A program made the translations under genes and the position numbers. DNA of 41,647 nt from Orenia metallireducens. GTDB taxonomy: Bacteria > Bacillota > Halanaerobiia > Halobacteroidales > Halobacteroidaceae. This document shows positions 3,241 to 31,632 of this stretch, piece by piece (the first letter of the stretch is position 1; each line of letters opens with the position of its first letter). The DNA lies in contig NZ_PVNB01000034.1 of the NCBI RefSeq assembly GCF_003001995.1, forward strand, positions 1-41,647, in the 5' to 3' direction. The notes under the pieces were generated by a model, which was not told where the DNA came from, ran no database searches, and saw only the letters and a program-made list of their open reading frames with translations.

Positions 3241-4647
3241 TTAATAGCTAACCCAAATCAATTTCCACTGCTGATTAGTTCCTCCAAGATCTGTCCACTG
3301 AGCAACATTTCCACCATCTTCAGTAGATAAGTTATATACCTCAATAGCCTTACCACTATTTCTATTAATTAACTTGTAATATCCATTTCCAACATTAACT
3401 AATTGCCATTCTTGAGTAGCATGGGCAGTATTCTCCCATTGCTGTATATTAGCCCCATCTGCTGTATCTGCATTAGCTACTTCAAGATATTTTAAGCTAT
3501 TTCTATTCTGTAATCTATAATATCCACCGCCAATTGGATAGAGCATCCATTCTTGAGTAGCATGACCTGTATCTCCCCATTGCTGTATATTAGCTCCATC
3601 TGCTATATCTGCAGAAGCTACTTCAAGATATTTCCCACTATTTCTATTCTGTAATTTATAGAAGCCTTTTTTATAACCATCATTTAGAGTAGGCCAGCCA
3701 TTGCTCCAATATAAATTCTTGATTCTAAGTACAGGAGCACCATTATTATTGGCATCATAAGCATGATGAACTAATAAATTATTATAGACATCTTGCCCCC
3801 CATGCCCCTTATATCTACTATCACTGGCAGTAAGGACTGTTCCACCACCATCTCTCATATCAATTCCATTTCTATCAATATAAGGTCCAGTTATGTTGCT
3901 AGAACGCCCATAGACTATCTTATAATCACTCTCAACACCTTTACAACACTTATCAATTGAAGCAAATAAGTAATAATAACCATCATGATAAGTAATGTTT
4001 GCCCCTTCTAAACCAGCAGGAGTACTACCAACATACCTACTAGCGATAGAATAGATTGTTCCTGTAGGCTTCATAGTATTCTTATCAACTCTTGTGATAT
4101 GAATCCCATCAGACCAAGATCCAAAGACCAACCATGGATTATTAGAACTGTCAATGATCAGATTTGGATCTATAGCATTGTATGATGTTCCACTTTGAGA
4201 AGAAGAAATAACCATTCCGTCTTCTCGCCAATCACCTGTAGCTATACTGCTAGCTGAAACCAGACCAATAGCTGAATTTCTAGTTCCAAACTCCGAAACA
4301 GAATAATATAGCCACCATCTACCATTATAATACTCTATATCAGGTGCCCATACAGAGTTATCAGGATCATAATTTGGAGCATAATTTGCCCACCAGCTAA
4401 GATCTGAGCTGAAAATAGGAATTCCTTGTGTCCAGTTAACACCATCACCTGAATACTTTACTGGTATACCTGTACCTGTGTGAAACAGCCACCATGTATT
4501 GCCCTCTTTTGTCAAAGCAGGATCATGAGCTCCAATATCTCCAGCTAAGCTCCAATCAGCTGCCAAAGCCACAGAAGAAATTGCCATCATTAACAACATG
4601 GTCATCGCCAATAAAACATAGTGCTTCTTACCTGTACATTTAATCAT
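3241..4647 (-). CDS. secreted GH43 arabinan endo-1,5-alpha-L-arabinosidase with C-terminal CBM13 (ricin) module
   Basis: A 468-residue exported enzyme. Residues 1-30 are a signal peptide ending SSVALAA. Residues 35-320 form the five-bladed GH43 domain with the expected acidic triad: Asp42 in AHDPA (base), Asp160 in AIDPN (pKa modulator) and Glu214 in GLEGAN (acid). WAPDIEYYNGRWWLYYS near 100-116 and GHGGQDV at 281-287 are typical of endo-arabinanases of the AbnA type. Residues 326-468 carry three QxW-type beta-trefoil repeats (YYKLINRNSGK, QQW, EW/QW endings), a CBM13-like module. The ATG at 4647 has GGAGG eight bases upstream. It is not closely related to the four LamG-GH43 enzymes at 16749-27622, lacks the LacI operator, and is probably its own transcription unit. 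Confidence 0.93.
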   Translation of the reverse strand: MIKCTGKKHYVLLAMTMLLMMAISSVALAADWSLAGDIGAHDPALTKEGNTWWLFHTGTGIPVKYSGDGVNWTQGIPIFSSDLSWWANYAPNYDPDNSVWAPDIEYYNGRWWLYYSVSEFGTRNSAIGLVSASSIATGDWREDGMVISSSQSGTSYNAIDPNLIIDSSNNPWLVFGSWSDGIHITRVDKNTMKPTGTIYSIASRYVGSTPAGLEGANITYHDGYYYLFASIDKCCKGVESDYKIVYGRSSNITGPYIDRNGIDMRDGGGTVLTASDSRYKGHGGQDVYNNLLVHHAYDANNNGAPVLRIKNLYWSNGWPTLNDGYKKGFYKLQNRNSGKYLEVASADIADGANIQQWGDTGHATQEWMLYPIGGGYYRLQNRNSLKYLEVANADTADGANIQQWENTAHATQEWQLVNVGNGYYKLINRNSGKAIEVYNLSTEDGGNVAQWTDLGGTNQQWKLIWVSY

Positions 4648-4977: not shown

Positions 4978-6945
4978 TTATATATTAAAATCTTCAACCA
5001 ATGTCTGTAGGCGATTAGACATACTAGCCATATTTTGAGAAGAACTAGCCACTTCTTTAGACATAGAGTCTATATTCTCTGAACTAATTATTAACTCACT
5101 ACTATTTTCTTTTAATAGCTGTACTACCGAATCAGTTTCAGTAATTTGCATGGAAGTATTCTCTATGGAAGCTCTAATTTGCTCAAAAACCTGACCTGTA
5201 TCCTGAACTATTTTCTTCCCTTCTGCAGTCTTAACTTCTACCTTCTTAATAGCTTCTAAACCAACATCAGATTTATTCTGAGTCTCTGTAATTATACTAG
5301 CAATCTTATTTGTTGCTTGAGAAGTCTCCTCAGCAAGGCTTCTAATCTCATCTGCAACTACCGCAAATCCTCGACCATGCTCGCCAGCCCTAGCTGCCTC
5401 TATTGCTGCATTTAGAGCAAGTAAATTTGTCTGTTCTGCAACATTAGTAATTAGCCCTATTATCTGACCAATCTTCTTAGAGTTATCATTTAAACTATTA
5501 ATCGTCTTCACTGCCTTAACAACCTCTTGATTAATCTCTTCCATATTATCATTTATCTTCTCTATATTGCCATCACCAACTTCAGCCTCTAAGTCAGCTT
5601 CTTTAGCCAACTCAGTCATACTATGGCTACTTGCTGAAAGTTGTTTAATACTAGCTGCCATCTCTTCTAGAGCATAGTTTGTATTCTCTATAGTTGCACT
5701 GCTCTCTTCAGCAGAGGCTGATAACTCTTGACTATAAGCTGATATATCATCTATTGCTTCTAATAAATCACCTACCATATTACTTAAATTACGCCTCATA
5801 TTATTAAGATTAGCAAATAAATTACCAATTTCATCACTTGATTTAATCTCCAAATCAGCTATATTTAAATTGCCCGAAGAGATCTTCTTAGCAAAATCCA
5901 TAGCTTGGGTAATTGGAGTAGTGATGTATTTAGCACAAGCAATAGCTATACCTACTGATAAGAGAGTTCCTATTATTGAGATAAGGATGATTACATTTCT
6001 AATTCTTCTAGCAGAGGAATTAATCTTCTCTATAGGAATTGTACTGGCTAAATATAGATTAGCCCCATCAATCTTATTTATGATCTGATAGTTATGCTTC
6101 ACAATTTGAGCTTTAGATAATACCCCTTTATCCATCTGGCTTAAATACCATTTATTTTTTATCTTATTAGTTAAGAGTTCTTCATTTTGATCTTTTAAAA
6201 TAACCCCATCTTTATTAATTAAAGATGCATTACCATAATCACCTAATGAAGTCTCTAAGTTATTGGCAAATAAATCAAGGGTAATACCTATTACCAAATA
6301 ACCTATTATCTCTTCTTGCGAATCACTCCTATACATTGGGAGATTTAGTAATAATAAAGGCTCTTCTTCAATATACTTTAAGTCACCAAAATCCAAATTT
6401 TTATATTGATCAGCAGCTAAGCTTCTACCAATATATTTTCTAGCTAGCTTCCTATCACTTAATGAATCTATTCTAGAATCAGCAATAACTATACCTTCTT
6501 TACTTGTCAAATAAGCCCATTTTGAATATTCAATCTGTTCTAAGGCTGCTTTGAGCTGCTTACCTGTCTTATATACAAAGGAATCATTAAATAAGAACCC
6601 CTTAAAGGTAAGCTGACCAGTATCTGTCATTAGCTTAGCATCCTCTGATAAATCCTTATCTTTAAAACCATCAGCCATCTTGACAAAAATGCTAACCATA
6701 TCATCCTTTAATAAAGGCATCATCACCTTATCTAACCTTGCTATAAAGTCAGTAATATTGCTCTTCTGATAATAATTGATAGTAGTAATCTGCTTATTAA
6801 CCTGCTCTAAGATCACCCCTTCAGTATACTCTTTAATCGTAAAAGTAACTAAGAACATGACAAATACTATTATACAGATAATAATCAATGATATCTTCCA
6901 TTTCAAATTCAAGTTTTTTAACTTAGTCTTTAAATTCTCCAACAT
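4978..6945 (-). CDS. methyl-accepting chemotaxis protein
   Basis: A transmembrane chemoreceptor of 655 residues from the chosen start. TM1 is at about 18-37, an extracytoplasmic Cache-like sensor domain at about 40-310, TM2 at 317-340 and HAMP at 341-395. The cytoplasmic signalling coiled coil follows, with its highly conserved tip ([20 protein letters not shown]) around 507-526. It should pass ligand binding to CheA/CheW. An ATG 21 bases further upstream is in frame, but only the ATG at 6945 has a Shine-Dalgarno sequence (AGGGGG, nine bases away), so 6945 is preferred. Its position beside the arabinan genes makes a sugar or sugar-binding-protein attractant conceivable; the sensor domain does not reveal the ligand. 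Confidence 0.93.
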
Positions 6946-7053
6946 AAGTCCCATCCCCCTAACCATCGAGAATTGGTCGCTATTTAAGATAAAAAATTAA
7001 GTTATAATTCCTAGATAATCCAATCCTTTAAATGATAAATATAAAAACTGCTA

Positions 7054-7263: not shown

Positions 7264-7412
7264 CACTGTAAATATCAAAAAATAATTAGATAATCATTAA
7301 CAACAACAAGTAACCTCAACTATAATTTAAATAGTAAAAAATTATTATGTTATTCAAAGCATAGCTCTGCTATAAGCTCCCTCCAATTAAAGTTAGCTAC
7401 CAAATATATAAT

Positions 7413-7451
7413 CAAGAGGTTGTTTGTTAAAGTTAACAAAACAACCTCTTG
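7413..7451 (-). terminator. hairpin terminator after the LamG lipoprotein gene
   Basis: CAAGAGGTTGTT and TGTTAA pair with TTAACA and AACAACCTCTTG, giving an 18-pair stem with a single bulge about 30 bases beyond the stop at 7481. It probably ends the porin-lipoprotein transcript. Confidence 0.6.
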
Positions 7452-7480
7452 AAACTTATTATTTATTATTTACTAGAAGC

Positions 7481-8704
7481 CTAGTATGTGCCGTTATATA
7501 ACTCATTAATTCCATCAGCAGATAAAGCTCCCTTATAAATTACAAATTCATCAAACTGTGCACTTAAGTTCGTATCAGCTGCAAAATTGGATTTTCCGAT
7601 ATAGTTACCAGTAGTCTCTCCAAACACCTTATCAGTTGCATTGTCATTTCTAACACGTTCCTTACCATTAATATACATAACAAGTGATTTCCCAGAACGA
7701 GTTAAGGCTACATGTTGCCACTCACCATCAGCTACAATATATGGAGCACCAACTGCATCTACCTTACTTCCAGAAAGATCAACATATGTTGAAGGCTCAT
7801 TAGCAGCCATAAATAGACTAGATGCTTCAGGTTTACCAAAGTCAAATATTCTAGACCAGTCTTTTAATTTATGAACGTTTATCCAAGTTGCAATAGTAAA
7901 GTCACCAACTCCATTAAGAATTCCATCAGGAAGATCCACAAAACCATTATTTCCATCAAGCTCTACTGCGTTACCATTTACTCCATCAACTATAGAAACT
8001 CCACCTTCTAAGGTTCCATCATTTCCATTTTCTGAAGAATCTGTTGCAGTCTCATCATCAAATGTATATTTAGCTACTAAAGTAATCTTAGTATATTTAG
8101 CAACAAGAACATCAGTTACAATTGTATTATCATCATCTTTAACAGCTACAGCTTTTATTGTTTGACCAGGGACAACCTTAATTGGTGCTGAATATACATT
8201 ATTCTCTGCTATTATATCATCAGCATCATTATCATTAGGAGTATCATCATCAGCAGCAACAGTTTCAGCAACTGTATAGTAAATAGTATAACCATTTCTG
8301 TAGCTTAGTTTAACATCTTTACCTTCCTCAGAAATTGCACCTGGAGCTCGGTCAACTACTGGCATATAAAGAGTTCCTTCAAAATCTAAATTATTTACAG
8401 ATTCAGTAGCTGTAAGTGGATCACCATCAAAACGATAACCATATTTAGATGCTTGTATAGTAACATCACCTTTAACAACCGCTGACCACTTACCAGCAGC
8501 TGTTGACACTGTACCATTTGTATCCCCTGAGATAGAAATGGTTACACCAGATACCGGTTCCTGAACACCATCTAGATTTTCTGCTGTAACTTCTCCATAT
8601 ATTTTATACTCATCTTTAGAAACTACCCCATCATCACTGCATGCTCCTAGCACTAAAGAAAATGTAAGTAATAAAGCGAATAAAGTTAATTTTTTCAAAG
8701 ACAT
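7481..8704 (-). CDS. LamG-domain lipoprotein, probable surface glycan-binding protein
   Basis: A 407-residue lipoprotein with no catalytic domain. The signal peptide ends in the lipobox LGAC (Cys22). Residues about 33-110 resemble a carboxypeptidase-regulatory-like beta sandwich (VSGVTISISG, AAGKWSAVV). About 125-205 resemble the chitobiase C-terminal type domain (GYTIYYTV, IKVVPGQTIKAVAV). Residues 208-407 are a LamG/concanavalin-like jelly roll. That LamG closely parallels the one at the start of the secreted GH51 (shared DSSxNGNDG, LPDxIL and RIFDFG). ATG 8704 follows AAAGGAGG. It lies 167 bases behind the porin gene and is probably cotranscribed with it. A role in holding arabinan near the porin is an inference from this pairing. 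Confidence 0.8.
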   Translation of the reverse strand: MSLKKLTLFALLLTFSLVLGACSDDGVVSKDEYKIYGEVTAENLDGVQEPVSGVTISISGDTNGTVSTAAGKWSAVVKGDVTIQASKYGYRFDGDPLTATESVNNLDFEGTLYMPVVDRAPGAISEEGKDVKLSYRNGYTIYYTVAETVAADDDTPNDNDADDIIAENNVYSAPIKVVPGQTIKAVAVKDDDNTIVTDVLVAKYTKITLVAKYTFDDETATDSSENGNDGTLEGGVSIVDGVNGNAVELDGNNGFVDLPDGILNGVGDFTIATWINVHKLKDWSRIFDFGKPEASSLFMAANEPSTYVDLSGSKVDAVGAPYIVADGEWQHVALTRSGKSLVMYINGKERVRNDNATDKVFGETTGNYIGKSNFAADTNLSAQFDEFVIYKGALSADGINELYNGTY

Positions 8705-8871
8705 ATCTCTTCCTCCTTTAATATTTTATCTCAAATTAGTTTATCTTCTTAAAATAGCGTTAACTATTTCTTTACCTACCGAAAGAATCATTTCACCTTA
8801 AGTTATTACCTTTTTCCCTCAGCAGCTTAGTTATATAAGCTATCATCTAATAACTATACATCCAATGAATT

Positions 8872-9804
8872 TTACCAGAAATTATATCTTAGAGCTGTCA
8901 TAAAGAATAATTCTTGATATGCTTTACCATTAAATCCATCATTAACATCAAACTCGTGGAATACATTAGCCTCTGCTTCCCAAATAAAATTCTTGCTTAC
9001 TGGTCTATTAATAAATACTCCAAGCTTAGCTTGGTTTGCATAGTCTCCTGCAGCATTATCCCAACGTCTTACTTCAGAATAAGAATTCATGAAGATCTTT
9101 GTTTGAGGGAAGTATTTAGCATAGTTTAATAATCCTCTAATTTCATCGCGATCATCAAGTCCTTCGAAATTTTCTTCTTCAAAACCTTCTCCTATAAATA
9201 TACCTACTCCAAGAGTTCCTCCTGCTATATCATATTTATATTGAGCTTCAATTTCAGCCCAATCATTTACATAGTCTATCTTGTCTCTCTGTGCATACTC
9301 ATATAATGCTCTGGTAAATATTCTTGATTTATTACTTAGATTATAGGTCATATTAACTTCTGGCTTAATTGTATCCCAACTATCATAATTAACAGTTTCG
9401 AAACCTCTTCCTTGAGAGAAGATTAGTTGTCCACCATAAGTTCCCCAAGCAGTATTCTTCTGATAACCTGGTCTAAATTCAAAACCTGTCTCTCCACCAT
9501 GATTTCCCGATAAATCCCCATCACCATAGATTAAACCATCATCGTTACTACCAGCTGCTGTAGCTTCATATACATGCATCTTCCATGATTTAACACCTAA
9601 TTGAAAGTTCCCCCAATCATCTCCTTTAAAGAACCCATCAAAGTTAATCCAGTTTATAAAACCAAGCTTATCTCCATTGCTCCATTCTCTATTCACTGAT
9701 TCTGCAGCTGTTCTAAAGGTACCATGGACAGCTGCCATAGCTCCTGTTGATAATAATGTTGATAATGTTAAGATTAGCGCCAACAATAATATAGTTTTTT
9801 TCAC
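8872..9804 (-). CDS. outer-membrane beta-barrel porin (OmpG/KdgM-like)
   Basis: A 310-residue exported protein: signal peptide 1-24 (ending STGAMA), then a chain of alternating hydrophobic/polar amphipathic segments rich in Tyr, Trp, Gly and Asn. The C-terminus is TALRYNFW; a terminal aromatic residue on the last strand is the recognition signal for outer-membrane barrel assembly. Length and style fit oligosaccharide porins of the OmpG/KdgM sort, though family assignment from reading alone is tentative. It starts at a GTG with AAAGGAGAG upstream. Three LacI-type operators lie upstream (9962, 10244, 10306). It implies a diderm cell and is the likely entry for arabino-oligosaccharides through the outer membrane. 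Confidence 0.75.
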   Translation of the reverse strand: MKKTILLLALILTLSTLLSTGAMAAVHGTFRTAAESVNREWSNGDKLGFINWINFDGFFKGDDWGNFQLGVKSWKMHVYEATAAGSNDDGLIYGDGDLSGNHGGETGFEFRPGYQKNTAWGTYGGQLIFSQGRGFETVNYDSWDTIKPEVNMTYNLSNKSRIFTRALYEYAQRDKIDYVNDWAEIEAQYKYDIAGGTLGVGIFIGEGFEEENFEGLDDRDEIRGLLNYAKYFPQTKIFMNSYSEVRRWDNAAGDYANQAKLGVFINRPVSKNFIWEAEANVFHEFDVNDGFNGKAYQELFFMTALRYNFW

Positions 9805-9956
9805 TATAATCTCTCCTTTTATAATAGATTTAAGAATGAAATTCCTTACTTACCCCATTTAAAGAACTTCATAATAATACATTTGATTCCATTAAATAAT
9901 GAATATTAAGAAATTTCAGAATAAATCGACATTTTGCTAAGCTTATGGACTCAAAG

Positions 9957-9982
9957 GATATTTCTAATCGATTAGAAATATC
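9957..9982. promoter_or_regulatory. LacI-type operator within a 26-base perfect palindrome, porin leader
   Basis: The core TTCTAATCGATTAGAA (9962-9977) is a fully symmetric version of the operator found throughout the locus. Symmetry extends five bases further on each side. It lies about 155 bases upstream of the porin start and downstream of the leader hairpin, so it may act as an auxiliary operator or a roadblock. Confidence 0.75.
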
Positions 9983-10058
9983 TTAAAAAAATTTTAAAAG
10001 ATGTCCTTATAAGGAAAACCATCACTAAGAAGTAATTTTATCCTTATTAACATAACAA

Positions 10059-10108
10059 AATACCCATTTCTTGACACAGATAGCTCGTCAAATTAAAATA
10101 TGGGTATT
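10059..10108 (-). terminator. terminator-like hairpin in the porin leader (AATACCC family)
   Basis: AATACCCAT and ATGGGTATT form the outer stem, and TTGAC/GTCAA form a smaller inner one. On the minus strand the stem is followed by TTGTTATG. It stands between the operators at 10244-10321 and the porin start, so it could attenuate read-through into the porin gene. It is preceded by TATAAGTTTATAA, like the hairpin at 35953-36007. Confidence 0.55.
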
Positions 10109-10243
10109 ATAAACTTATAATCTTATTATCCTTATTATGCCATTGTAATTGAACAAGTAACTTATCTTCACCCCCTTGTAGAGAAATATCAAAATCCTTC
10201 TAGCCTAAAATCAGCTTCCTTATATTAGTTATATTTTACTTTT

Positions 10244-10259
10244 TTCTAACCGTTTAGAA
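10244..10259. promoter_or_regulatory. LacI-type operator, porin unit, site 1
   Basis: TTCTAACCGTTTAGAA matches the locus consensus. It is 47 bases from the next site, centre to centre about 62, allowing cooperative binding or looping. Confidence 0.8.
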
Positions 10260-10305
10260 TGAGCAGAAAAATTTTTGGTTCAAATTCACCCACTAAAAAC
10301 AAATT

Positions 10306-10321
10306 TTCTAACCGATTAGAA
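10306..10321. promoter_or_regulatory. LacI-type operator, porin unit, site 2
   Basis: TTCTAACCGATTAGAA is an exact consensus copy. The promoter of the porin-lipoprotein unit is expected around sites 1 and 2, but I could not pick a -35/-10 pair with confidence. The rest of 9805-10632 holds the leader, hairpin and MITE-like copy 2. Confidence 0.85.
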
Positions 10322-10460
10322 CAACTTACTAACTTATATAAAAATTATATACTAATAGTTTTATAATGTCAAGCATAAATAAAAGATTATATGGAGAAAT
10401 TTTATTAAATAATATCTAAGAACCACTTTTACTATATATCAAAGTCTAAAGTGAAAATTA

Positions 10461-10632: not shown

Positions 10633-13600
10633 TTACTTGGTCTTAATCCGTAAGACTGTAACTGAATTTTTATCAAAATTATACTCAAAGCTTCTAGCTA
10701 CACCTGTCAACTCTACAGTAATAGGTGAGACCTTTTTAGGATTTTCAAAGGAGTTCTCATCTGTTGGCTTATCAGAAGTCAAGATAGTAGCAGTAGCAGT
10801 ACCGATGATATCTTCAGCTCCTTTTAATACTATCTTAGTAGTTAATATTCTATCTGAACTATTAACTACCTTTAGGATAATATCACCAGTCTCCTTATCC
10901 TGACTGCTGACATAATAAAGAGGACCAGAATTGACGTCATCAATGATGTCATGGATCAGCTCACCATCTAAGTAGGTACGGATTCTATTACCAGCTAATT
11001 CAATTCTAATATCATACCATTTCTTCTTTTCAATGGTCTTCATAGAGCTCTTACCGATGATCTCACCTCTACCCTTAGACACCTTTTCTAAGGCACTATG
11101 ACTATTACCCCAGCCTCCCAAATTAAGTCGATAATAATTATTCTCATCCTTAATTCCAAAGTAAACAATCACACCTTCATTTCCACTTATCTTACGAGCT
11201 TTCAATTTTAAGGTATAGTTAGTCCAATTAGTATTACCAGCATAGGAAGCAGTATTAGACTTACGACTAGTCTGCTTATAAAGACCATCTTCTACCTTCC
11301 AATCTCCATCAAATACTTTCCAATTAGCATCATTACTATTAAAATCATCACTAAATAACACTTTACCATCACTAGTAATTTCGATCTGATCAAATTCTAC
11401 TTTAGTTTCCCAGCTACCAAGTCCAATTAAACCTGTAATATCTTCACTCTCTTCTTTATATTCACTTAGATTTGTAGCTAAAGTAATATCACCTACATTC
11501 TGACTAAATATCTTCTGTACATAATAGCTAGGTGTACCAAAGACATCTGATTTATTGAACCAGATTAAATCAGGAGCCCATTGAGTACCATTAACATTAT
11601 TAAATAATGGTGCATAAGCAGCCATCACTACCACATCTGAATTTCTTTCCAGACCAGTCATAAAAGCTGCTTCTGCTATAGCAGCCTCAAGGTTGTTTCT
11701 TCTACCAGCTCCATGGGCAGCATATTCACCTACAAACACCTGTGGCATACTGCGATCATAACTGTCATATCGATCAGCATTATCTAAAAACCACTCTGGT
11801 GGCATGTACATATGCTCATCTACAATGTCAGCAGGTTGAGTCTTTAACCAATCCCATGCTCGAGCATAATTATAATCAAAAGCCATTGGTCCACTAGAAG
11901 TTATCAACTTTATTTCTGGATACTTAGCCTTAAGAACCTCATGGAACTTCTCATATCTCTCATAATATTCAGGTCCCCAGTTTTCATTTCCAACTCCTAA
12001 ATATTTTAAGTTAAAGGGTTCAGGATGACCATTTTCAGCCCTTTTAGCCCCCCACTTACTGGTTACTGGACCATTAGCATATTCGATTAAATCTAAAGCA
12101 TCTTGAATCCAATGCTCAATCTCATCCATATCCTCCAATTCTGCTCCTCGAGCTTGACAAGATAATCCAGCAGGCAAGATTGGCAGGGGTTCTGCACCTA
12201 AATCCTCGCTTAATTGGAAGTATTCATGATAGCCTAAACCATTAGATTGATAATATCCCCATAAATTATACTTAACCTTTCTTTCTGCAAGGTCACCAAT
12301 TGTTTCCTTCCAATGATAAGCATTATCTAAATCAATTCCTTCAACTATACATCCGCCAGGGAACCGGAAGAAGCTTGGATTTATTTCATCAAGCATCTTA
12401 ACTAAATCTGGTCTTAATCCATTCTCTCTATTTTTCCAAGTATCCTCTGGGAAGAGAGAGACCATATCCATGAAAACAGTTCCTGTATCAGAGGCGGTAA
12501 CTACCAATTTAGCAGATTCAATACTCTTGTCTGCCTTAATTCTAGCAGTATACTTTTTCCAATCATCTTTAGAGATATTTTTAATCTGAGTCTGTCCATA
12601 AATAGTTCCAGCTTTATCTTCAAGACTAACATTAATTGTACCATTAAAATTATCATTAGCATGAGCATACATTGAGAAGTTATATTCTTTACCTTCTTCA
12701 ACTAAAATCCCCCAATAACCTGCATTGCTAATACCAACACCATCACCAGATTCTTTGATATTCAATTCAAGATAGTGTTGATTATTTTCATTCAATGGTT
12801 CATTATCATCTACTGATAATTTTCCTTTACCTGAACCCTTAGTAACTAAAGACCACCCTTCTAGGCTTTTGTCGTATTCAAGGGAACGATTTTTAATCTG
12901 CTCAGCATATAATCCTCCATCAGCTCCATAGTTTATATCCTCAAAGAATGCTCCATATAAGATAGGACTAATCTCGACTCCCTCTTGGTCAACATCAACT
13001 TCTAAAGTATAAGGTGTATGACCAGTTTCTAAAACTGTTACCATAAACTCTTTAATAGCATTTACACCTTTTTTGCTAATTGTCGCCTGTAATGATACAT
13101 TTATATCCCCTGCTCCTGCTTGAGGACGAGTTACCCTTCCATCTGTTGCTATTATTTCAGAATTGCTTGAAGTCCAGCTAATCTCTGTTCCACTATCACC
13201 TGCTACTGGTAACTTTAGATTATGGGTTATAGCATCTAACTTTCCTAAATCAAGCTTTGCCTTATCCTTCTCTACAGCATCCTCGGCACTGAAGGCCTCT
13301 TCTCTTAAAGCTACTATCTCTGCTTGACTTAAGGCACGATTATAAATACGAAAGTCATCTATCTCTCCAGAGAAATAAGGATCTAGATCATATTGTGACT
13401 TCCCGATATAGTTTGCTGTAGTTGTGCCTAAATCAGTTGGATTGACAGTAATCTTTCCTGTAGCTACTTTCTTTCCATCTTCATAGATTATTCCTTGATC
13501 CCCAGCTAATACAGCTACAAGATGCTTCCACTCTCCTAGTTCATTGATAGGACTACTCTTAATCACAACCTCTTCATTTCTATTTCCTCCACCTGCTGTT

Positions 13601-14058
13601 AAGGCAAAGCGCGCATCTTGTAATGAAGAGTTAGGCGTTAAGAACATATACGCATCTGTGCCTATACCAAAGTCAAAAATTCTCTGCCAAGGTCTTACTT
13701 GCTCCTGTTTAATCCAAGTAGAGATAGTGATATCCTTAATACCTGTCAAGATATCATCAGGTAGTTGAACATAAGCATCTCTTCCATTTAAAGTTATGGC
13801 ACCATCTATATTCCCCGCAGACCAACTATTATCACCTTTTGCAATACCATCATTACCATTTCCCGATGAATCTTTAACAGTCTCACCTGTTTTCTCATCA
13901 AATTTGTACCATAATATCATCTCTTGATTGACAGCTTTAGATTCTTCTTTATCTCCACCACCAAAAAGGTCATCAAAAAACCAGAATGCTGATGCATTTA
14001 AACTCATACTAGTAATTAGTATAGTAAGAAGGAACATTATCAATAACTTTTTTCTCAT
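10633..14058 (-). CDS. large secreted GH51 alpha-L-arabinofuranosidase with LamG, Ig-like and CBM modules
   Basis: From the preferred start it is 1141 residues, far longer than the roughly 500 of a plain GH51. In order: signal peptide (1-25, ending LNASA), LamG (about 48-255), degenerate Ig-like domain (about 260-345), then a GH51 core from about 355 that contains a CBM4/9-like insertion (about 395-535). The catalytic barrel has acid/base Glu692 in GVGNENWG and nucleophile Glu778 in VGEYAAHG. A LamG/3-keto-disaccharide-hydrolase-like domain (about 890-1060) sits inside the C-terminal beta domain, which resumes with GDIILKVVN. A TTG 15 bases upstream is in frame, but GGGAG lies eight bases before the ATG at 14058, which is chosen. 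It should strip arabinofuranosyl side groups from arabinan or arabinoxylan outside the cytoplasm. Confidence 0.9.
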   Translation of the reverse strand: MRKKLLIMFLLTILITSMSLNASAFWFFDDLFGGGDKEESKAVNQEMILWYKFDEKTGETVKDSSGNGNDGIAKGDNSWSAGNIDGAITLNGRDAYVQLPDDILTGIKDITISTWIKQEQVRPWQRIFDFGIGTDAYMFLTPNSSLQDARFALTAGGGNRNEEVVIKSSPINELGEWKHLVAVLAGDQGIIYEDGKKVATGKITVNPTDLGTTTANYIGKSQYDLDPYFSGEIDDFRIYNRALSQAEIVALREEAFSAEDAVEKDKAKLDLGKLDAITHNLKLPVAGDSGTEISWTSSNSEIIATDGRVTRPQAGAGDINVSLQATISKKGVNAIKEFMVTVLETGHTPYTLEVDVDQEGVEISPILYGAFFEDINYGADGGLYAEQIKNRSLEYDKSLEGWSLVTKGSGKGKLSVDDNEPLNENNQHYLELNIKESGDGVGISNAGYWGILVEEGKEYNFSMYAHANDNFNGTINVSLEDKAGTIYGQTQIKNISKDDWKKYTARIKADKSIESAKLVVTASDTGTVFMDMVSLFPEDTWKNRENGLRPDLVKMLDEINPSFFRFPGGCIVEGIDLDNAYHWKETIGDLAERKVKYNLWGYYQSNGLGYHEYFQLSEDLGAEPLPILPAGLSCQARGAELEDMDEIEHWIQDALDLIEYANGPVTSKWGAKRAENGHPEPFNLKYLGVGNENWGPEYYERYEKFHEVLKAKYPEIKLITSSGPMAFDYNYARAWDWLKTQPADIVDEHMYMPPEWFLDNADRYDSYDRSMPQVFVGEYAAHGAGRRNNLEAAIAEAAFMTGLERNSDVVVMAAYAPLFNNVNGTQWAPDLIWFNKSDVFGTPSYYVQKIFSQNVGDITLATNLSEYKEESEDITGLIGLGSWETKVEFDQIEITSDGKVLFSDDFNSNDANWKVFDGDWKVEDGLYKQTSRKSNTASYAGNTNWTNYTLKLKARKISGNEGVIVYFGIKDENNYYRLNLGGWGNSHSALEKVSKGRGEIIGKSSMKTIEKKKWYDIRIELAGNRIRTYLDGELIHDIIDDVNSGPLYYVSSQDKETGDIILKVVNSSDRILTTKIVLKGAEDIIGTATATILTSDKPTDENSFENPKKVSPITVELTGVARSFEYNFDKNSVTVLRIKTK

Positions 14059-14077
14059 AATCCACTCTCCCAATTAT

Positions 14078-14227: not shown

Positions 14228-16627
14228 TTAACAATAAATTTTATATATTTCAACCTTATCGATAGCAGGTGCCAAGCTAGTCTCATTAGCGAAGGTTATT
14301 GTATTCTCTCCAGCTTTTAGCCTTATATCAATCACAACTGTACAATAATTGTTCCACGTAAAGGTATTGCGGAAATAGACCTTCTGTGTCTTCTCTCCAT
14401 TTACATTGATTTCTGCTGCTCGATCTACTATATCGACATTATACATATGACCACCTAACTTTTGGGCATTGGCATAGTGTATCAGCAGCTTATAGTTTCC
14501 AGCTTCAGTAACCTTGATTTGATTGAAGATAAGCTTATTCTCTGCTCCTGCTCCAATTCCACTTACATATTTGCCACCTGAGGCATATCGGCTCTCTTTG
14601 ATTACTGCTGTTCCAGATAAAGTATTAATATTAGATTCAGCTTCAAAGCTCGCAATAGCTTCTTGGCTATGCAATTTAATCGCTTCAATAGCAAGCTGCT
14701 TATCTGCAAAGGAAACTAGATTAATTCCAGCTTGGAGGAATATAGTTAGATACTTATTATCTTTAGAAGACAGATTAGTTATTTCTAAATCATTAACTTT
14801 TAAAGTTATAGCTTCACTATTATTTGAGCTAGCACCATAGTCTAATTCTATAGTATAGTAAGCATCAGCTTGAACACTGATAACAAAGGAGTTGTCACCT
14901 TCATCAAAAGTAAATCTCTCTAGATAAGCTATTCTAGCAGAATTTGTATCAGCATCTAAGCCCAGATAAGTTAGATCAATCTTATCCAAATCCACTGATA
15001 GCTTAGCTCTACTCATAGCTTTATCAGCCTTAGCAAAGGTAATAGTATGATTACCTTTCTCTAAATAGAGTTCAACAGATTTTCTAGCTTCATATTTCCA
15101 AGCAATAGTTGGAGGATACACCACCTTACTCCACTGTCTATCATCAACCTGCACTAACTGTTCAGCTATATCTCCATGCCCATTACCATAGAAGATATCC
15201 ATTAGATAATTTCCTGTATGAGGAACCTCAACACTAAATTCAACTCTACTACTATCTCTTCTAATATCACCTACCCGATGACCTTTAGAGTTATAATTGT
15301 CCGTAGGATTATAGAGATTATTACCATCAAAATAGCCTCCGGCAAAGATACTGGCATTAGTTATTTTCCCTTCCTCTGCTTGATAACTCTGCTTCCATGA
15401 CTTCTGATAGTCAGTACTTTTATTATCTCTATCAGCAGTTATTATTAGCTGATAGGCTGATGATATCTCCACCTTAGGCACTTTTATAGCAACTTTACCA
15501 TCTACTATCTTATAATCTCCTGCTAACTCAAAACTTGGTCCAATAGATGCACCTTTTTGACCTGTCCACTCAGCAGATAAAATCTCAATATATACATCAT
15601 TATCAAAAGAGTCTATATCCTCAAATCCATCAATAACTATATCAATATCACCATTTACCCCACCTAATAATAGCCTAGCTTCCTCTTTTTCACTATCTAA
15701 AGTAGCTATACCTTGCAAACCTGCCTTATTCCTATTAGGGGGAGTTACCTTGACTGTATGACCTGTCATATCACTATACCACTTGTATAACCACCAAGCA
15801 CCAGTAACTTTATTATTCTCGACCACTAGATCATCTAAAGAGCCTGCATCATGCCAATAAGCTAAGCAAGCATCGACCTTAGTATCTTCAAAACGAGCCA
15901 ACCATTGAATCAATTGACCTGGTACCGACAGATCCATAAAGGTTCCATACTCATTAATAGCAATCTCTCTTGGTGCAATTCCTAAGGTATCTTCAATCTT
16001 ACGATAAGAGTTATAATGATCATACCACTCTGAATAAAAATGATTATCCAATTCATGCCAAGTCACCACATCAGGCAAACAATCATTGCCCTGAGCAAAA
16101 GCCATAAAATCAGCATAGAAGCCTTCATCATAATAGGAGTTATTGGGACCAGCAATTAAAGCCTCCTTATCAATGGAACGAATTCTTTGATAGACAAGCT
16201 TCCAATCATTAAAGAAATCTTCTTTCTTGTTATGTATGTTATACCAGATAGCATCAGGCTCATTAAAAGGAACATAGGCAAAGATTTCACGATTTGAGTT
16301 AGCAGCTACCTTTTTAGCAATAAGCTCTACCTTCTCTAAATAATCTTCAATGTCCGCCTCATCATAAGGCCACTTAGGGTAAACATCCTGCATATAGATT
16401 TGAATCTGTTTACCACCAGATTTTTTATAGATATCTGCTATCTCTAGAGCATCACCATTAGGATGTTGTAGACCTTCAGGTGCTTTTTGGGCAGCAACCT
16501 GAATCTTTAAAGGAGCTAAAGTATTATAATTTGGGATACCTTTATCACCTAAGCCATATAAAAAACCAATTCCTCCATATCTGATCTCTCCAGTATCTTC
16601 GCTTAAATCCACCTTCAACTTGTGCAA
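14228..16627 (-). CDS. clan GH-A-like glycoside hydrolase (GH39-like?) with two CBM6/35-like modules
   Basis: A 799-residue protein that I cannot place in a family with certainty. The N-terminal 300 residues look like a (beta/alpha)8 glycosidase: Glu123 in PFNEPD suits the acid/base after strand 4, and Glu226 in AINEYG suits the nucleophile after strand 7. A small beta domain follows to about 395. Regions about 415-555 (SYQAEEG, VEVPHTGNYLMDIFYGNG, KGNHTITFAKAD) and about 665-799 (SFEAES, EAGNYKLLIHYAN, AGENTITFANE) look like CBM6/35 jelly rolls. The TTG start at 16627 follows AGAAGGTG. No signal peptide is visible there, which is odd for a protein with binding modules between two secreted enzymes. 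GH39-type arabinobiosidases are one precedent for an enzyme of this clan acting on arabinan; this is a suggestion only. Confidence 0.7.
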   Translation of the reverse strand: MHKLKVDLSEDTGEIRYGGIGFLYGLGDKGIPNYNTLAPLKIQVAAQKAPEGLQHPNGDALEIADIYKKSGGKQIQIYMQDVYPKWPYDEADIEDYLEKVELIAKKVAANSNREIFAYVPFNEPDAIWYNIHNKKEDFFNDWKLVYQRIRSIDKEALIAGPNNSYYDEGFYADFMAFAQGNDCLPDVVTWHELDNHFYSEWYDHYNSYRKIEDTLGIAPREIAINEYGTFMDLSVPGQLIQWLARFEDTKVDACLAYWHDAGSLDDLVVENNKVTGAWWLYKWYSDMTGHTVKVTPPNRNKAGLQGIATLDSEKEEARLLLGGVNGDIDIVIDGFEDIDSFDNDVYIEILSAEWTGQKGASIGPSFELAGDYKIVDGKVAIKVPKVEISSAYQLIITADRDNKSTDYQKSWKQSYQAEEGKITNASIFAGGYFDGNNLYNPTDNYNSKGHRVGDIRRDSSRVEFSVEVPHTGNYLMDIFYGNGHGDIAEQLVQVDDRQWSKVVYPPTIAWKYEARKSVELYLEKGNHTITFAKADKAMSRAKLSVDLDKIDLTYLGLDADTNSARIAYLERFTFDEGDNSFVISVQADAYYTIELDYGASSNNSEAITLKVNDLEITNLSSKDNKYLTIFLQAGINLVSFADKQLAIEAIKLHSQEAIASFEAESNINTLSGTAVIKESRYASGGKYVSGIGAGAENKLIFNQIKVTEAGNYKLLIHYANAQKLGGHMYNVDIVDRAAEINVNGEKTQKVYFRNTFTWNNYCTVVIDIRLKAGENTITFANETSLAPAIDKVEIYKIYC

Positions 16628-16748: not shown

Positions 16749-19565
16749 TTACTTCACTAAGCTGTTTACTTTCTCAGCAGATAGAGACTTATTGTAGATA
16801 CGTAAATCATCTATCATTCCTTTAAATGGAGTATCCCACCAGTTAACTCCTAAAGTAAATAGAGTTTTTGCATTAGTAAAGACATTAGGGAAATCTTGAC
16901 CTGCAAACCTCTGCTCTCCATTTACATATACCTTAATATCACCTTCATCAACAGTAATAGCGATATGGCTCCATTTCTTTGCATCAATAGTCATACCTGT
17001 AACAGCATCATACCAATCTTCTCCAGACCAGAGCATAGTCTCTTCAGCAGGACCATTAGGTACAAAGCTGAACCATTGATTAGCTGCCTGAGCTCCAAAG
17101 AAGGTTGTCGTAAATTGAGTAATCTTCTTAGGATTTAACCAGAAAGCTACACTATAATTATTGTCTCTAATTAGACCATCTGCTAAACGAATACCAGATT
17201 TACCATTAAAGACAGCAGCTTCTCCTTTGATACCTTCACTATAGTCTATTGATCCCCCATTTTTAGCAGTGATTTTATTACCAATCACTTTACCTTGCTC
17301 AAAATTACCAGTTGTATCCTCTAAATTCTCATCAAAGGTATAATGAGCTACTAAACCATCCTCATCAGCAACAGGTTCCTTGGCTACTACTTCTTCTTTT
17401 GCTTTAACCTTTACATCACCTGGAAGTTGACTTCCCCAAATAGAGATTCCTTCATCAGATAAAGCACTAAAGGTCATTACATACTCTTTTAATCCATCAT
17501 CCCACTGCTTTAAGAAGACTCCGTAGTAAGTGTCACCATCAATAGTTATATTAACTTGATAGTCACCAACCTTCTCCCAAGTTCCTTCAACTGCTCCAGA
17601 GATAGTACCATCAGCATTAAGCTTGATATTCTCTGATAGATGGATATCTCCACCTGAAACTCCAAAGGTTGATTGAATATCGTTCTGATGATTAATATAT
17701 TGATATACACCTAAGACTTCTTCCTTTGAATATGCTTCTACAGTCTCTCCAGCATAACGGTGAGGAACAATTACTGGCCATCCTTTAGAGTTCATTAGAA
17801 GCTGATGTACTCTTAAGCTATGCATCTCTCCCATTTCTGGAAAACGAGTATGGAAGATAATAAACATTTTATCAAGCTCTTCATCATAATAAGCTGCATT
17901 ATGTCCAGGAGATAGATAACCTAGATCTGATTCAACAAATTTGAAGTTACCAACTAATTTAGCCCCATAAGGCTCAGCATTTCTCCAGTTACGTCCATCA
18001 ATACCCTTTTTGATAAAGTCAACCATATCATTTCCTTGTGGATCTGTATAAGGTCCATCAGGGTTTTTAGAACGCATTACTCTAATATTATATCCTCCAT
18101 CAGAAGCTAGAGTTCCAAAGGAAACGAATAGATAATAATATCCTGTCTCTTCACTATATTGAATTTGAGGTCCTTCCATTGGCATATGATTTCCACCAGC
18201 AAGCCTCTTACCATACCCTTGCCCTGGCTTAGGATAACCAGTCTTAGGATCCATCTCTAAGATATACATTCCTCCAGAATAAGAACCATAGTCCATCCAT
18301 AACTTACCGTCAGCATCAAAGAAGACATGAGGATCAATTACACCAGGATGGATAGAATTATCATACTTCTCTCCTGCCTCTTCACTGTACTCTCCATTCT
18401 CATACTTCTTAATTAACATACCTTGATACTTATAAGGTCCTTCTATATCATCAGCAATAGCTAAGGCAATAGCTGATCTAGGAGACTCCCAATGAGCTGT
18501 ACTAAAGTACATATAGTACTTACCATTAAGCTTTAGTATACTTTTAGCCCAAGTAGTTTCAGCATCTGGCTCTGGCCACTCTAAAGCCTCTTTAAATTCT
18601 TTTTCTACATTAGGTACAACAGGATTACTGTTACTCCAACCATTACCTACAGCTTCCCACTTCATTAAATCCTTAGATTTAGCAACACCTAAATGAGAAC
18701 CAAAGACATAATAAGTCCCATTCTCCTTAACCATCATTGGGTCATGGACTGCTACATTTCTAAATTGTGGTCCTTTGATAACTATCTCCTTAGCTCCATC
18801 AGCAAGCTCTTTTACTTTATCTGCTGAGATAGCTTGATTATAGATACGTAAATCATCAATCATACCCTTAAAAGGAGTATCCCAATAGTTAACTCCTAGT
18901 GCAAAGACACTATCTTCATCAGTAAAGATATCAGGGAAACCTGCATCAGAAAATCTCTCTTGTCCATTAAGATAAATGTTAAGCTTACCATTGTCTACTG
19001 TAAAAGCTACATGGACCCATTCTTGTTTGGCTATCTTCATATAAGTACTACCATCATACCAAGGGTCATTTCCAGACCAAAGCATAGTCTCTTCACCTGG
19101 CCCTGATGGTACAAAACTGATCCATTTCTGTTTATCTGACTCATCAACTGAACCAGCAAAAAAAGTTGTTGTAAAGGCTGTGATCTCTTCAGGCTTTAAC
19201 CAAAAGGATACACTATAACTGTTATCTGTAATCAATCCCTTTGATAAGCGAAGACCTGACTTACCATCAAATATAGCAGCTTGACCTCTCATCCCTTCAC
19301 CATAGGTAATTGAGCCACCACGCTTAGCATCAATCCGCTTACCAACAATCTTAGCTTCTCCAAAATTATCAAGTTCATCTACTAAACTTTCATTAAAAGT
19401 ATAATGAGCAATCAAACCATCCTCATTAGCAACAGGTTCTTTATAATCACCTGGCTCTTCTACTGGCTCAGATGACATAGCAAGTACATTTGTAGATGAT
19501 ACAATTGCTAACAATAACATCATCGGTACTACAAGTGATAGTATAGACTTCAATCTTTTTCTCAT
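16749..19565 (-). CDS. secreted LamG-GH43-LamG arabinanase (GH43-D)
   Basis: 938 residues: signal peptide 1-29 (ending TNVLA), LamG about 46-258, GH43 about 268-625, the C-terminal beta-barrel domain of the Abn2-type arabinanases about 630-715, and a second LamG about 728-938. The triad is Asp275 (VHDP), Asp411 (VIDPH) and Glu464 (PMEG), with the GHN motif near 560. Where most GH43 enzymes and paralogues B and C have WAPD, this one reads TTWAKS. Its catalytic part pairs with GH43-A, but its first LamG is closer to that of GH43-B (shared QKWIS, SGNDPWYD, DEDSVFAL). The ATG at 19565 has GGAGG upstream. It is the fourth and last of the array in transcription order. Confidence 0.92.
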   Translation of the reverse strand: MRKRLKSILSLVVPMMLLLAIVSSTNVLAMSSEPVEEPGDYKEPVANEDGLIAHYTFNESLVDELDNFGEAKIVGKRIDAKRGGSITYGEGMRGQAAIFDGKSGLRLSKGLITDNSYSVSFWLKPEEITAFTTTFFAGSVDESDKQKWISFVPSGPGEETMLWSGNDPWYDGSTYMKIAKQEWVHVAFTVDNGKLNIYLNGQERFSDAGFPDIFTDEDSVFALGVNYWDTPFKGMIDDLRIYNQAISADKVKELADGAKEIVIKGPQFRNVAVHDPMMVKENGTYYVFGSHLGVAKSKDLMKWEAVGNGWSNSNPVVPNVEKEFKEALEWPEPDAETTWAKSILKLNGKYYMYFSTAHWESPRSAIALAIADDIEGPYKYQGMLIKKYENGEYSEEAGEKYDNSIHPGVIDPHVFFDADGKLWMDYGSYSGGMYILEMDPKTGYPKPGQGYGKRLAGGNHMPMEGPQIQYSEETGYYYLFVSFGTLASDGGYNIRVMRSKNPDGPYTDPQGNDMVDFIKKGIDGRNWRNAEPYGAKLVGNFKFVESDLGYLSPGHNAAYYDEELDKMFIIFHTRFPEMGEMHSLRVHQLLMNSKGWPVIVPHRYAGETVEAYSKEEVLGVYQYINHQNDIQSTFGVSGGDIHLSENIKLNADGTISGAVEGTWEKVGDYQVNITIDGDTYYGVFLKQWDDGLKEYVMTFSALSDEGISIWGSQLPGDVKVKAKEEVVAKEPVADEDGLVAHYTFDENLEDTTGNFEQGKVIGNKITAKNGGSIDYSEGIKGEAAVFNGKSGIRLADGLIRDNNYSVAFWLNPKKITQFTTTFFGAQAANQWFSFVPNGPAEETMLWSGEDWYDAVTGMTIDAKKWSHIAITVDEGDIKVYVNGEQRFAGQDFPNVFTNAKTLFTLGVNWWDTPFKGMIDDLRIYNKSLSAEKVNSLVK

Positions 19566-19614
19566 ATTTCTTCCTCCCTTTCAATACTTTAAATTTTATT
19601 ATAGTAAAATTCAA

Positions 19615-19639
19615 GAGGTTATTTTAGAAAAATAATCTC
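19615..19639 (-). other. small intercistronic hairpin before GH43-D
   Basis: GAGGTTATTTT pairs with AAAATAATCTC with one mismatch and a three-base loop; on the minus strand TTGAATTTTA follows. It could be a weak terminator or an mRNA-stabilising structure. Confidence 0.4.
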
Positions 19640-19703
19640 ATAATAATCCCCCTAAATTCATTAACCTTTATAATCAATTCAACAATTAATATTGTTCATT
19701 AGT

Positions 19704-22076
19704 TTACTCTACAATCTGACTTCCCCAGATTGAAACTCCCTCTGCAGATAACGCAGTAAAGGTCATTACATTCTGCTTATTTGCTTCATCCCATTGTCGC
19801 AAGAAAACACCATTATAAGTTACGCCATCTATTGTCAACTTAACATCATGGTCTCCATTAAGTTCCCAGCTACCACTAGCATTTCCAAAGATTGTTCCAT
19901 CCTCATTAAGCTCGATAATAATAGAATACTTTATATCAGCTGTAATATCTTTACCATGCTTAATAAACTTATATCTACCAGCTATATCCTCTACAGAATA
20001 TTCTTCGATAGTCTCTTCTGCATATCTGTGAGGAGCCACTACAGGCCAACCGTCACTATTTATGAACATCTGATGAACCCTAACTTGGTGTGCTTCACCT
20101 TGACCTGGGAATCTAGTGTGGAAGAAAATATAGTGCTTTCCACTTTCCTGATTATAATAAGCACTATTATGACCTGGCGATACATACCCCAAATGATCTG
20201 TTGCTGGCTCCATCTCTTCTTTAAGAAATACAAAATTCCCCATCAGTTTAATACCATAAGGTTCAATAGCCTCATCATCAAATGAAGTACCAGCTGGTCC
20301 ATGAGCATCAATCATCTCTTGACCCTTGGCATCATAATAAGGGCCATCAGGATTTTTAGAACGAGCAACTCTAATATTATAACCACCATCTGCAGCAAGA
20401 CCACCATAGCTTAGGAATAGATAATAATAATCTGACTCTGGACTATAGAGTACATAAGGAGCTTCAATCCTACTATGATTTCCTCCTAATAACTTCTTAC
20501 CATAGCCTTGGTCAGCATGAGGCTTACCTGTTGCTGGATCAAGCTCTAAAATAAAGATTCCACCTGAGTAAGAGCCATAGACCATCCACAGCTTCCCTTC
20601 CTTATCAAAGAAAACATCAGGGTCAACAGTATTTGGATGGATAGTAGCATCATAAATAGTCCCATCCTCACTAGTTTCATCCCACATTCCAGATTTTAAA
20701 AAGATACCTTTATCCTGATAAGGCCCTTCTACATTATCAGCTACAGCTAGACCAAGAGCAGACCTTGGAGAGCCACCTTCACACATATTATAGTACATAT
20801 AATACCTACCATCTTCGAGCTGAATCACGTCAGGTGCCCAAAGAGTCTCAGTCTGTGCCCAGTCAAGCCCTTCACTTAACTCTTCTGTCACATTTGGAAT
20901 CAAAGGGTTATTATCATGGACATGATCACTATACTGCTCCCAGTTAATTAAATCCTTAGAATAAGCAGAAGCTAAATGAGAACCAAAGACCCAATAAGTA
21001 CTATCAGCTTTAATTACTGAAGGGTCATGAACTGACACACCATTAGAGTCAATAGGTACTACAATATTATTTGATACTTCTAATTTAGAAGTCCCTTCAG
21101 CCAGCTTAGCTATCTTATCAGCAGATATAGCTGCATCATAGATACGTAAGTCATCTATCATCCCTTTAAAGGGATCATTCCAATAATTAACTCCCAAACT
21201 AAAGATAGAATCTTCACCAGTAAATACATCAGGAAAATCTCTACCTACAAACATTTCTTCCCCATTTAGATAGACCTTTACCGTGCCATTATCTACTGTA
21301 AAGGCTACATGGCTCCATTGATTTACAGGAATTATTAAAGGGGTATAGGCATTATACCAATTCTCTCCAGACCAGAGCATTGTATGAGCTTCTGTTGGAC
21401 CTTTTGGTACTAGACTAACCCATTGACTTGATTCCTTATCTGCCGGAATAGCTCCAAAGAAAGTTGTTGCTAAGTCTCTAATCTGGTCTGGTTTCAACCA
21501 AACAGAGACACTATAACTATTATCAGTAATTAGCTTATCTGGCAAACGAACACCAGACTTACCATCAAATACTGCAGCCTGCCCATTGATCCCCTTACTA
21601 TAAGTGATACTTCCACCACTTTCACCAATTGATGAACCAATTTCTGTACCTGCTGTAAAATTATCAGTTATATCTGCTAAACTAGCCTCAAAATTAAAAT
21701 GGGCTACTAAGCTATCAATCTCAGAATTAGATGCAAATGTATCAAAAGTTATTTTCTGATCTGTATCACCCATGATAACACTATTATTCTCTTCTTCAGC
21801 TCCAACTGTAGCAACGACTTCATAAGTACCTTCTGCTAATTTAAATTCAGCCACCGAAGCACTTTTACTAGCAATTGTTTTCCCATCTTTTTTAATAATG
21901 ATATCAGCTACTATCAAATGACCTTTATCATTTTGGATACTCACTGTTAAATTATTTGTACCTAATATTACATCTGCTTCATCACCACCACTACCACCAC
22001 TGCTACAAGCCCCTAAAATGTTAACAATCACTAGTAATAAAACAAGAATCAAAGACTTGTCTTTTGAAAAATTCAT
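19704..22076 (-). CDS. lipoprotein LamG-GH43 arabinanase (GH43-C)
   Basis: About 790 residues and the only lipid-anchored member of the array. The lipobox LGAC gives Cys24, followed by a Ser/Gly-rich linker. Residues about 42-112 are a small beta sandwich (LTVSIQNDKGHLIVADIIIKK) not present in the other three. LamG is at about 122-330, GH43 about 345-700, and the Abn2-type C-terminal domain follows to the end. The triad is Asp351, Asp486 and Glu538, with a normal WAPD motif near 413. The catalytic half is very close to GH43-B, whereas the LamG and linker are closest to GH43-A (PADxxxSSQW, SGENWY, AISADKIAKLAEG). A TTG three bases upstream is in frame; the ATG at 22076 is better spaced from GGAGGGG. 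Confidence 0.92.
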   Translation of the reverse strand: MNFSKDKSLILVLLLVIVNILGACSSGGSGGDEADVILGTNNLTVSIQNDKGHLIVADIIIKKDGKTIASKSASVAEFKLAEGTYEVVATVGAEEENNSVIMGDTDQKITFDTFASNSEIDSLVAHFNFEASLADITDNFTAGTEIGSSIGESGGSITYSKGINGQAAVFDGKSGVRLPDKLITDNSYSVSVWLKPDQIRDLATTFFGAIPADKESSQWVSLVPKGPTEAHTMLWSGENWYNAYTPLIIPVNQWSHVAFTVDNGTVKVYLNGEEMFVGRDFPDVFTGEDSIFSLGVNYWNDPFKGMIDDLRIYDAAISADKIAKLAEGTSKLEVSNNIVVPIDSNGVSVHDPSVIKADSTYWVFGSHLASAYSKDLINWEQYSDHVHDNNPLIPNVTEELSEGLDWAQTETLWAPDVIQLEDGRYYMYYNMCEGGSPRSALGLAVADNVEGPYQDKGIFLKSGMWDETSEDGTIYDATIHPNTVDPDVFFDKEGKLWMVYGSYSGGIFILELDPATGKPHADQGYGKKLLGGNHSRIEAPYVLYSPESDYYYLFLSYGGLAADGGYNIRVARSKNPDGPYYDAKGQEMIDAHGPAGTSFDDEAIEPYGIKLMGNFVFLKEEMEPATDHLGYVSPGHNSAYYNQESGKHYIFFHTRFPGQGEAHQVRVHQMFINSDGWPVVAPHRYAEETIEEYSVEDIAGRYKFIKHGKDITADIKYSIIIELNEDGTIFGNASGSWELNGDHDVKLTIDGVTYNGVFLRQWDEANKQNVMTFTALSAEGVSIWGSQIVE

Positions 22077-22162
22077 CAAACCCCTCCATCAGGATAGTAA
22101 TAATACCTCTTAATTTATAGTCATCCAGCTTTAGGTCGAAATTTAAAAATACCACTATAGAA

Positions 22163-22485: not shown

Positions 22486-22557
22486 CCCTAAAAATCGCTT
22501 ATCCACGAAAAATATTATCACTATTCCTTTGATGAATAATTTATCTATATAGATAAA

Positions 22558-24705: not shown

Positions 24706-24742
24706 ATTAACTCCTCCTTTTAGATAGTTTAGTAATAAAAAT

Positions 24743-24789
24743 ATTTAGGAGGTTATTATAAAGATAGTTTAATAATAACCTCCCTAAAT
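24743..24789 (-). other. intercistronic hairpin between GH43-A and GH43-B
   Basis: ATTTAGGAGGTTATTA pairs with TAATAACCTCCCTAAAT with one extra base. On the minus strand it is followed by ATTTTTATT. It looks like a terminator and could lower expression of the genes behind GH43-A, or protect 3' ends after processing. Confidence 0.5.
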
Positions 24790-24811
24790 TAACACCTAGC
24801 AAAAATTATCT

Positions 24812-29463: not shown

Positions 29464-29508
29464 AATCAATAACCACCTTCCAACTTTTAATAAAATTTAT
29501 TAGAATTT

Positions 29509-31600: not shown

Positions 31601-31632
31601 AATTCTAACTCCCCTCACTTTCTACACAAGGT

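Follow-up and report, generated by a model that had tools for sequence, protein, structure and literature searches.

What carries arabinan fragments across the outer membrane of a diderm Firmicute is the question raised by contig NZ_PVNB01000034.1 of Orenia metallireducens (assembly GCF_003001995.1), whose 41,647 nucleotides form the window analyzed here and contain an arabinan locus with a two-gene unit (positions 7481-9804, minus strand) coding for a porin candidate and a LamG lipoprotein. A sequence-only reading of this DNA had proposed that the pair may represent a distinct outer-membrane uptake design. The unit probably codes for a dedicated outer-membrane porin and a sugar-binding lipoprotein for arabinan uptake, feeding an Opp-type ATP-binding cassette (ABC) importer, and the porin gene is co-regulated with the importer and depolymerases for one substrate, as seen from operators, promoters, and synteny in two genera. 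The unit and its control region are organized as follows:

10344..10372, minus strand: sigma-A type promoter of the porin unit, TTGACA-17-TATAAT, a perfect match
10306..10321, unstranded: operator TTCTAACCGATTAGAA, directly downstream of the promoter -10 box
10244..10259, unstranded: operator TTCTAACCGTTTAGAA
10059..10127, minus strand: leader element in the porin mRNA leader, with tandem 8-nucleotide WATAAGNY repeats and then a hairpin, AATACCCAT...ATGGGTATTTT
9962..9977, unstranded: operator TTCTAATCGATTAGAA, the core of a 26-nucleotide perfect palindrome (9957-9982) in the porin mRNA leader
9813..9818, minus strand: ribosome binding site AAGGAG of the porin gene
8872..9804, minus strand: porin candidate, GTG start, 310 amino acids, signal peptide MKKTILLLALILTLSTLLSTGAMAA, C-terminus ...ALRYNFW, no known family
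8712..8717, minus strand: ribosome binding site AGGAGG of the LamG lipoprotein gene
7481..8704, minus strand: LamG lipoprotein, 407 amino acids, lipobox LVLGAC with Cys22, then SDDG
7412..7452, minus strand: 14-bp perfect inverted repeat 3' of the lipoprotein gene, the probable end of the two-gene unit, with a weak T-run

The operator is a palindrome, TTCTAANCGNTTAGAA, with nine occurrences in the window (six exact, one with one mismatch, and two with two mismatches); one further site at three mismatches is dubious. Only eight exact sites are present in the whole 4.1-Mb genome, and six of them fall in the window, which is 1% of the genome (binomial chance, ∼3e-11). Three exact operators (at 9962, 10244, and 10306) precede the porin gene, in agreement with the earlier assignment of three of the nine to this unit. 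Counting both strands, there are three perfect TTGACA-(16-18)-TATAAT promoters in the window, with operators immediately after each, and they belong to the regulator, the importer operon, and the porin unit. With three exact operators and a perfect promoter ahead of them, the porin and lipoprotein genes are therefore under the cluster's own switch, and the unit has a promoter that does not depend on the GH51 gene upstream of it.

Among 60 related genomes the porin candidate has a single real homologue (38% identical), in G005, a member of another genus of the same family, where the gene order is LacI-SBP5-DppBCDF-GH51-porin-GH43-GH43-GH43. The G005 LacI protein is 72% identical to the one encoded in the window, and the importer operon has a similar promoter arrangement, with two operators before the gene for SBP5, the solute-binding protein. 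This independent linkage of porin and arabinan import is the strongest evidence for function. Weak matches in G003 and G035 were discarded, as these are longer proteins matched over residues 1-76 or so only, a stretch that takes in the signal peptide, and no porin relatives were found in the genome-contig collection or in plasmids. The protein could instead be a general, non-specific diffusion porin that is induced with the arabinan genes by happenstance and has no substrate preference; it resembles general porins in its small size, simple architecture, and single copy, and general porins of other families are present in the same genome. However, its sole relative among the 60 genomes lies in the same arabinan operon, which is unexpected for a general porin, and the gene is under substrate-specific operators, so that a general porin is an unlikely explanation.

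The features initially described for the porin candidate (a signal peptide, a barrel-like pattern, and a terminal Phe-Trp) are borne out, the pattern by a home-made barrel-alternation score only. There are about 12 to 14 predicted strands ahead of the C-terminal Phe-Trp, and the protein ranks 10th by this score among 177 signal-peptide open reading frames drawn from the fetched loci, alongside BamA, TamB, LamB, and Porin_4 proteins. Several observations weigh against a dedicated arabinan porin. The barrel score of the G005 homologue is poorer, ranking 22nd of the same 177, and the porin candidate has no match in Pfam (E≤1), NCBIfam, or the PDB sequences. Barrel prediction with AlphaFold2 (two runs on a two-row alignment) gives nearly all strand, but with a predicted local distance difference test (pLDDT) score of only 43 and 48 for the fold. 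In addition, homologous importer loci in G025, G035, and G045 lack such a porin, and no LamG lipoprotein gene lies beside the porin gene in G005. The porin is thus not essential to arabinan import in this class; in these comparisons it is restricted to certain lineages, and the lipoprotein is more local still.

The same structural results bear on whether the protein forms a channel at all. It could be a beta-rich protein of the outer membrane or periplasm, such as a barrel for anchoring or displaying the arabinanases, or a soluble protein that binds sugar, for which the lack of a confident fold and of a family match, together with the adjoining genes for exported LamG enzymes, can be cited. 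Foldseek searches with the AlphaFold2 model yield mainly outer-membrane barrels, but none with E <0.001 and all with low template modelling (TM) scores. However, the strands extend over nearly the whole chain, and the barrel-type alternation and C-terminal signature are common to the BamA, LamB, and Porin_4 proteins of this genome, making a non-channel role quite unlikely. The AlphaFold2 models are too poor to support a fold, and the Foldseek list was not taken as proof; the porin candidate is likely a transmembrane beta-barrel, with putative channel activity and a predicted specificity for arabinan fragments.

Membership in described porin families was considered and rejected in each case. 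There is no match to the LamB profile (PF02264), which other proteins of the genome match at ∼1e-86, and none in Pfam to Porin_4 or KdgM. When it is compared by hhalign to the Porin_4 protein of this genome, the alignment is confined to the signal peptide and first strand (probability, 35%), and the candidate has neither the SLH match nor the stalk of OmpM proteins.

An outer-membrane channel presupposes an outer membrane, and the biogenesis genes that the sequence-only reading depended upon are present. A single cluster in the same genome codes for BamA (an Omp85 protein with three POTRA domains), three Skp-like proteins, LpxD, two LptF/G-like permeases, and TamB; Pfam confirms one of the three Skp-like proteins as OmpH and one of the two permeases. 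It is comparable to the conserved envelope locus of the Halanaerobiales (PMC5007114), and the genome is placed in that group here from this likeness and from its relatives. With BamA, lipopolysaccharide (LPS) synthesis and export, and chaperones all encoded, the host cell is diderm by gene content. The search for Lol genes is the part that did not succeed: BamA and LPS genes are found, but the LolA profile PF03548 has no match in the genome in a Pfam search at E≤1e-3, and LolA is reported from every Halanaerobiales genome analyzed previously (PMC5007114). The missing LolA match, together with Firmicute-like translation signals, an Opp importer, and LacI control, would suit an arabinan locus of the monoderm type, with a mistaken porin call and a lipoprotein of the usual kind in the plasma membrane. 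The outer-membrane gene cluster leads us to reject this as very improbable; LamB-family porins are also encoded in the genome, and LPS outer membranes are published for the Halanaerobiales (PMC5007114). A short Omp85-type barrel protein is also encoded directly 3' of a branched-chain amino-acid type ABC importer (L024:4665-6038, on G000 C10).

The gene following the porin was described as coding for a non-catalytic LamG lipoprotein, and the lipobox and a domain search agree. The protein contains CarboxypepD_reg-like and Fn3_assoc/CHB_HEX_C-like domains (two small all-beta modules) and a C-terminal Laminin_G_3 domain, none of them catalytic. Its LamG domain is closest in the genome to that of the neighbouring exported GH51 (36% identity), so an arabinan-related ligand is the natural guess, and the lipoprotein is likely a surface arabinan binder. 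Homology of its N-terminal domains to a GH53 lipoprotein of the same genome is marginal (E 0.06); no full-length homologue is present among 20 relatives searched, with G005 matching through LamG domains of enzymes only, and viral contigs contain no relatives.

As to the proposed surface location, the lipobox with Cys22 is clear, but exposure is no more than suggested by a pattern of acidic residues in the tail that follows, where the mature protein begins C-S-D-D-G. A pair of neighbouring acidic residues occurs in the first ten or so positions after the Cys in 13 of 17 enzyme, binder, and other non-solute-binding lipoproteins versus 2 of 13 solute-binding lipoproteins of importers (Fisher, 0.0025; net-acidity permutation p, 0.007), in a comparison of partly related sequences that were sorted by eye once they had been viewed, with a few of unclear function left out. 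Lipoproteins of L006, L007, L059, L084-L087, and the window have acidic residues directly after the lipid cysteine (as in CSSDD..) in the enzyme/binder type, and mostly begin with CGG or have Lys in the importer type. Bacteroidetes surface lipoproteins carry an acidic export tag, and it is possible, as a lead only, that acidic residues after the lipid cysteine are a surface-export signal in this group as well; the surface location of the LamG lipoprotein is thus putative.

The other genes of the window, all on the minus strand, are as follows:

36674..37672: LacI-family regulator, to which the operators probably belong; it has a promoter (37796-37767) and an operator (37763-37748) of its own
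33867..35966: the importer's solute-binding lipoprotein (SBP_bac_5), with a promoter (36433-36405) and three operators
29509..33763: Opp/Dpp-type ABC importer, four genes (two permeases, two ATPases)
27982..29469: intracellular GH51 arabinofuranosidase, whose 78% identical G005 counterpart adjoins the porin there
16749..27622: four exported LamG-GH43 arabinanase-type enzymes, one a lipoprotein, CSSGGSGGDEAD
14228..16627: 799-amino-acid protein containing CBM13-like and CBM35 domains, in which no signal peptide is recognised
10633..14073: exported LamG-GH51 arabinofuranosidase
4978..6966: chemoreceptor
3241..4647: exported GH43 endo-arabinanase (AbnA-like) with a ricin-type lectin domain
beyond the AbnA-like GH43 in minus-strand gene order: MATE pump and AXE1 esterase

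The gene content, regulatory sites, synteny, and outer-membrane biogenesis genes are direct observations, and they can be joined in a scheme for arabinan use. In the presence of the inducer, presumably arabino-oligosaccharides or arabinose, the LacI-type regulator would leave its operators and the porin-lipoprotein unit would be transcribed together with the importer operon. The exported LamG-GH43 and LamG-GH51 enzymes would cut arabinan outside the cell, the LamG lipoprotein, probably at the cell surface, would keep the polymer or oligomers near the membrane, and short arabino-oligosaccharides would pass through the porin to the periplasm by passive diffusion. There SBP5 would bind them for import by the Opp-type transporter, and the intracellular GH51 would release arabinose.

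The repeat-plus-hairpin element of the porin mRNA leader has counterparts elsewhere. Similar elements precede the SBP5 gene of the window (36028-36008) and that of G005, and the WATAAGNY leader is also seen at window positions 27715-27687 and at L006:18677, L065:3376, L056:11929, L084:13948, and L068:13046, before uptake or export genes; in many cases the hairpin after the repeats is terminator-like. The strict motif has 39 matches in 880 kb of fetched sequence versus 5 in a reversed control (overlapping repeats being counted separately), of which 36 are intergenic and 35 are oriented toward the next gene, although the loci were picked around importers and porins, which biases which genes carry it. 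Unusually stable structure follows 44% of strict motifs versus 8% of the background, and an Rfam scan of the window gave no match; the element may be an attenuator or processing site. A further feature is a long hairpin at 10463-10580, between the GH51 gene and the porin promoter, with ATATTGCGACACTTTTT ends (-48.9 kcal/mol; z, -7.4). Its AAAGTGTCGCAATAT end recurs at least 8 times in other fetched loci with differing interiors, and it is perhaps a miniature mobile element. Outside the window, an exact arabinan operator is located at L024:11983 (G000 C10:47982), ∼70 bp before two genes for beta-lactamase-like serine hydrolases with no obvious arabinan link. A second operator set (L023:8669-12984, on G000 C9) is in a locus with two GH51 genes, a CUT1 importer, and GH43, which probably belongs to this regulon or to a related one.

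Other glycan loci of this genome also have porins, and as the genome was viewed by family search and targeted stretches, their number is a lower bound. A galactan-type locus on contig C12 combines galactose genes with a CUT1 importer, a GH2 enzyme, and a LamB-family porin (E 1e-86) that has a GH53 lipoprotein directly after it; the contig also codes for a CBM48-LamB fusion followed by amylase-type lipoproteins, in an order found in G001, G002, and G003 as well. On contig C24 a Porin_4 protein is encoded near two sugar-binding proteins, and on contig C28 another Opp importer is followed by a 452-amino-acid barrel-like protein. LamB porins with an N-terminal domain and several lipoprotein genes after them are found at L084:9577-11226, L085:9809-11512, L086:9261-10925, and L087:10129-11745; the N-terminal domain matches an AMPK/CBM48 glycogen-binding profile in L084, the one tested, and the tested downstream lipoproteins of L084, L085, and L086 have amylase domains. 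In G032, of the same class, an SLH domain is fused to LamB beside a sugar ABC importer (L088:2284-3960), an OmpM-like layout with a LamB pore. A porin of its own and an exported lipoprotein in each glycan locus are a habit of this group, of which the arabinan unit is one case with an unclassified porin. A broader proposal, that the porin represents an undescribed arabino-oligosaccharide porin family of diderm Firmicutes, that each Halanaerobiales glycan locus pairs its own porin with acidic-tagged surface lipoproteins, and that a repeat-plus-hairpin leader is shared by the uptake genes, is tentative and somewhat doubtful.

Its regulated promoter and the G005 synteny link the porin to the arabinan system, but to call the design distinct is too strong, because the LamB/Mal and KdgM/Tog systems follow the same logic and the genome repeats it elsewhere with LamB-family porins; we regard the porin family as new and the uptake logic as already known. 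In the Proteobacteria, LamB-MalEFGK (maltodextrin) and KdgM-TogMNAB (oligogalacturonide) each combine a substrate-induced dedicated porin with an ABC importer and extracellular depolymerases. The arabinan unit likewise has a dedicated porin, an ABC importer, and extracellular enzymes, but its porin is outside the LamB and KdgM Pfam families, its importer is of the Opp/SBP5 type, its host is a diderm Firmicute, and a LamG lipoprotein is added. The LamB-GH53 and CBM48-LamB-amylase loci of the same genome also have a porin gene directly followed by one or more exported lipoprotein genes for the same glycan, and the galactan locus has an ABC importer too, but their porins are of the LamB family and the partner lipoproteins are mostly enzymes rather than pure binders.

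In Bacteroidetes SusCD loci, similarly, one regulator controls a lipoprotein for binding at the surface, the surface enzymes, and a port in the outer membrane. The contrast drawn earlier with SusCD holds, in that an Opp-type ABC importer is present and the window genes scanned have no match to SusC, SusD, or another TonB-dependent receptor; as the porin is 310 amino acids long and has no plug, a SusCD reading was rejected, and transport here would be through a passive porin. Among diderm Firmicutes, Veillonella parvula is the best studied; its OmpM paralogues reportedly make up the entire set of general diffusion porins, and the uptake of nutrients is linked to tethering of the outer membrane (PMC10628300). 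The genome described here indicates that Halanaerobiales-type diderms also have dedicated porins that are part of single glycan loci, among them LamB relatives and no fewer than one unclassified family, which bears on the function and evolution of outer-membrane uptake outside the Proteobacteria and Bacteroidetes and provides concrete genes for testing. Like the OmpM proteins of diderm Firmicutes (PMC10628300), the arabinan porin would be an outer-membrane nutrient channel in the same broad group, but it has no SLH tether or stalk, and it is encoded and regulated within a catabolic locus rather than an envelope cluster.

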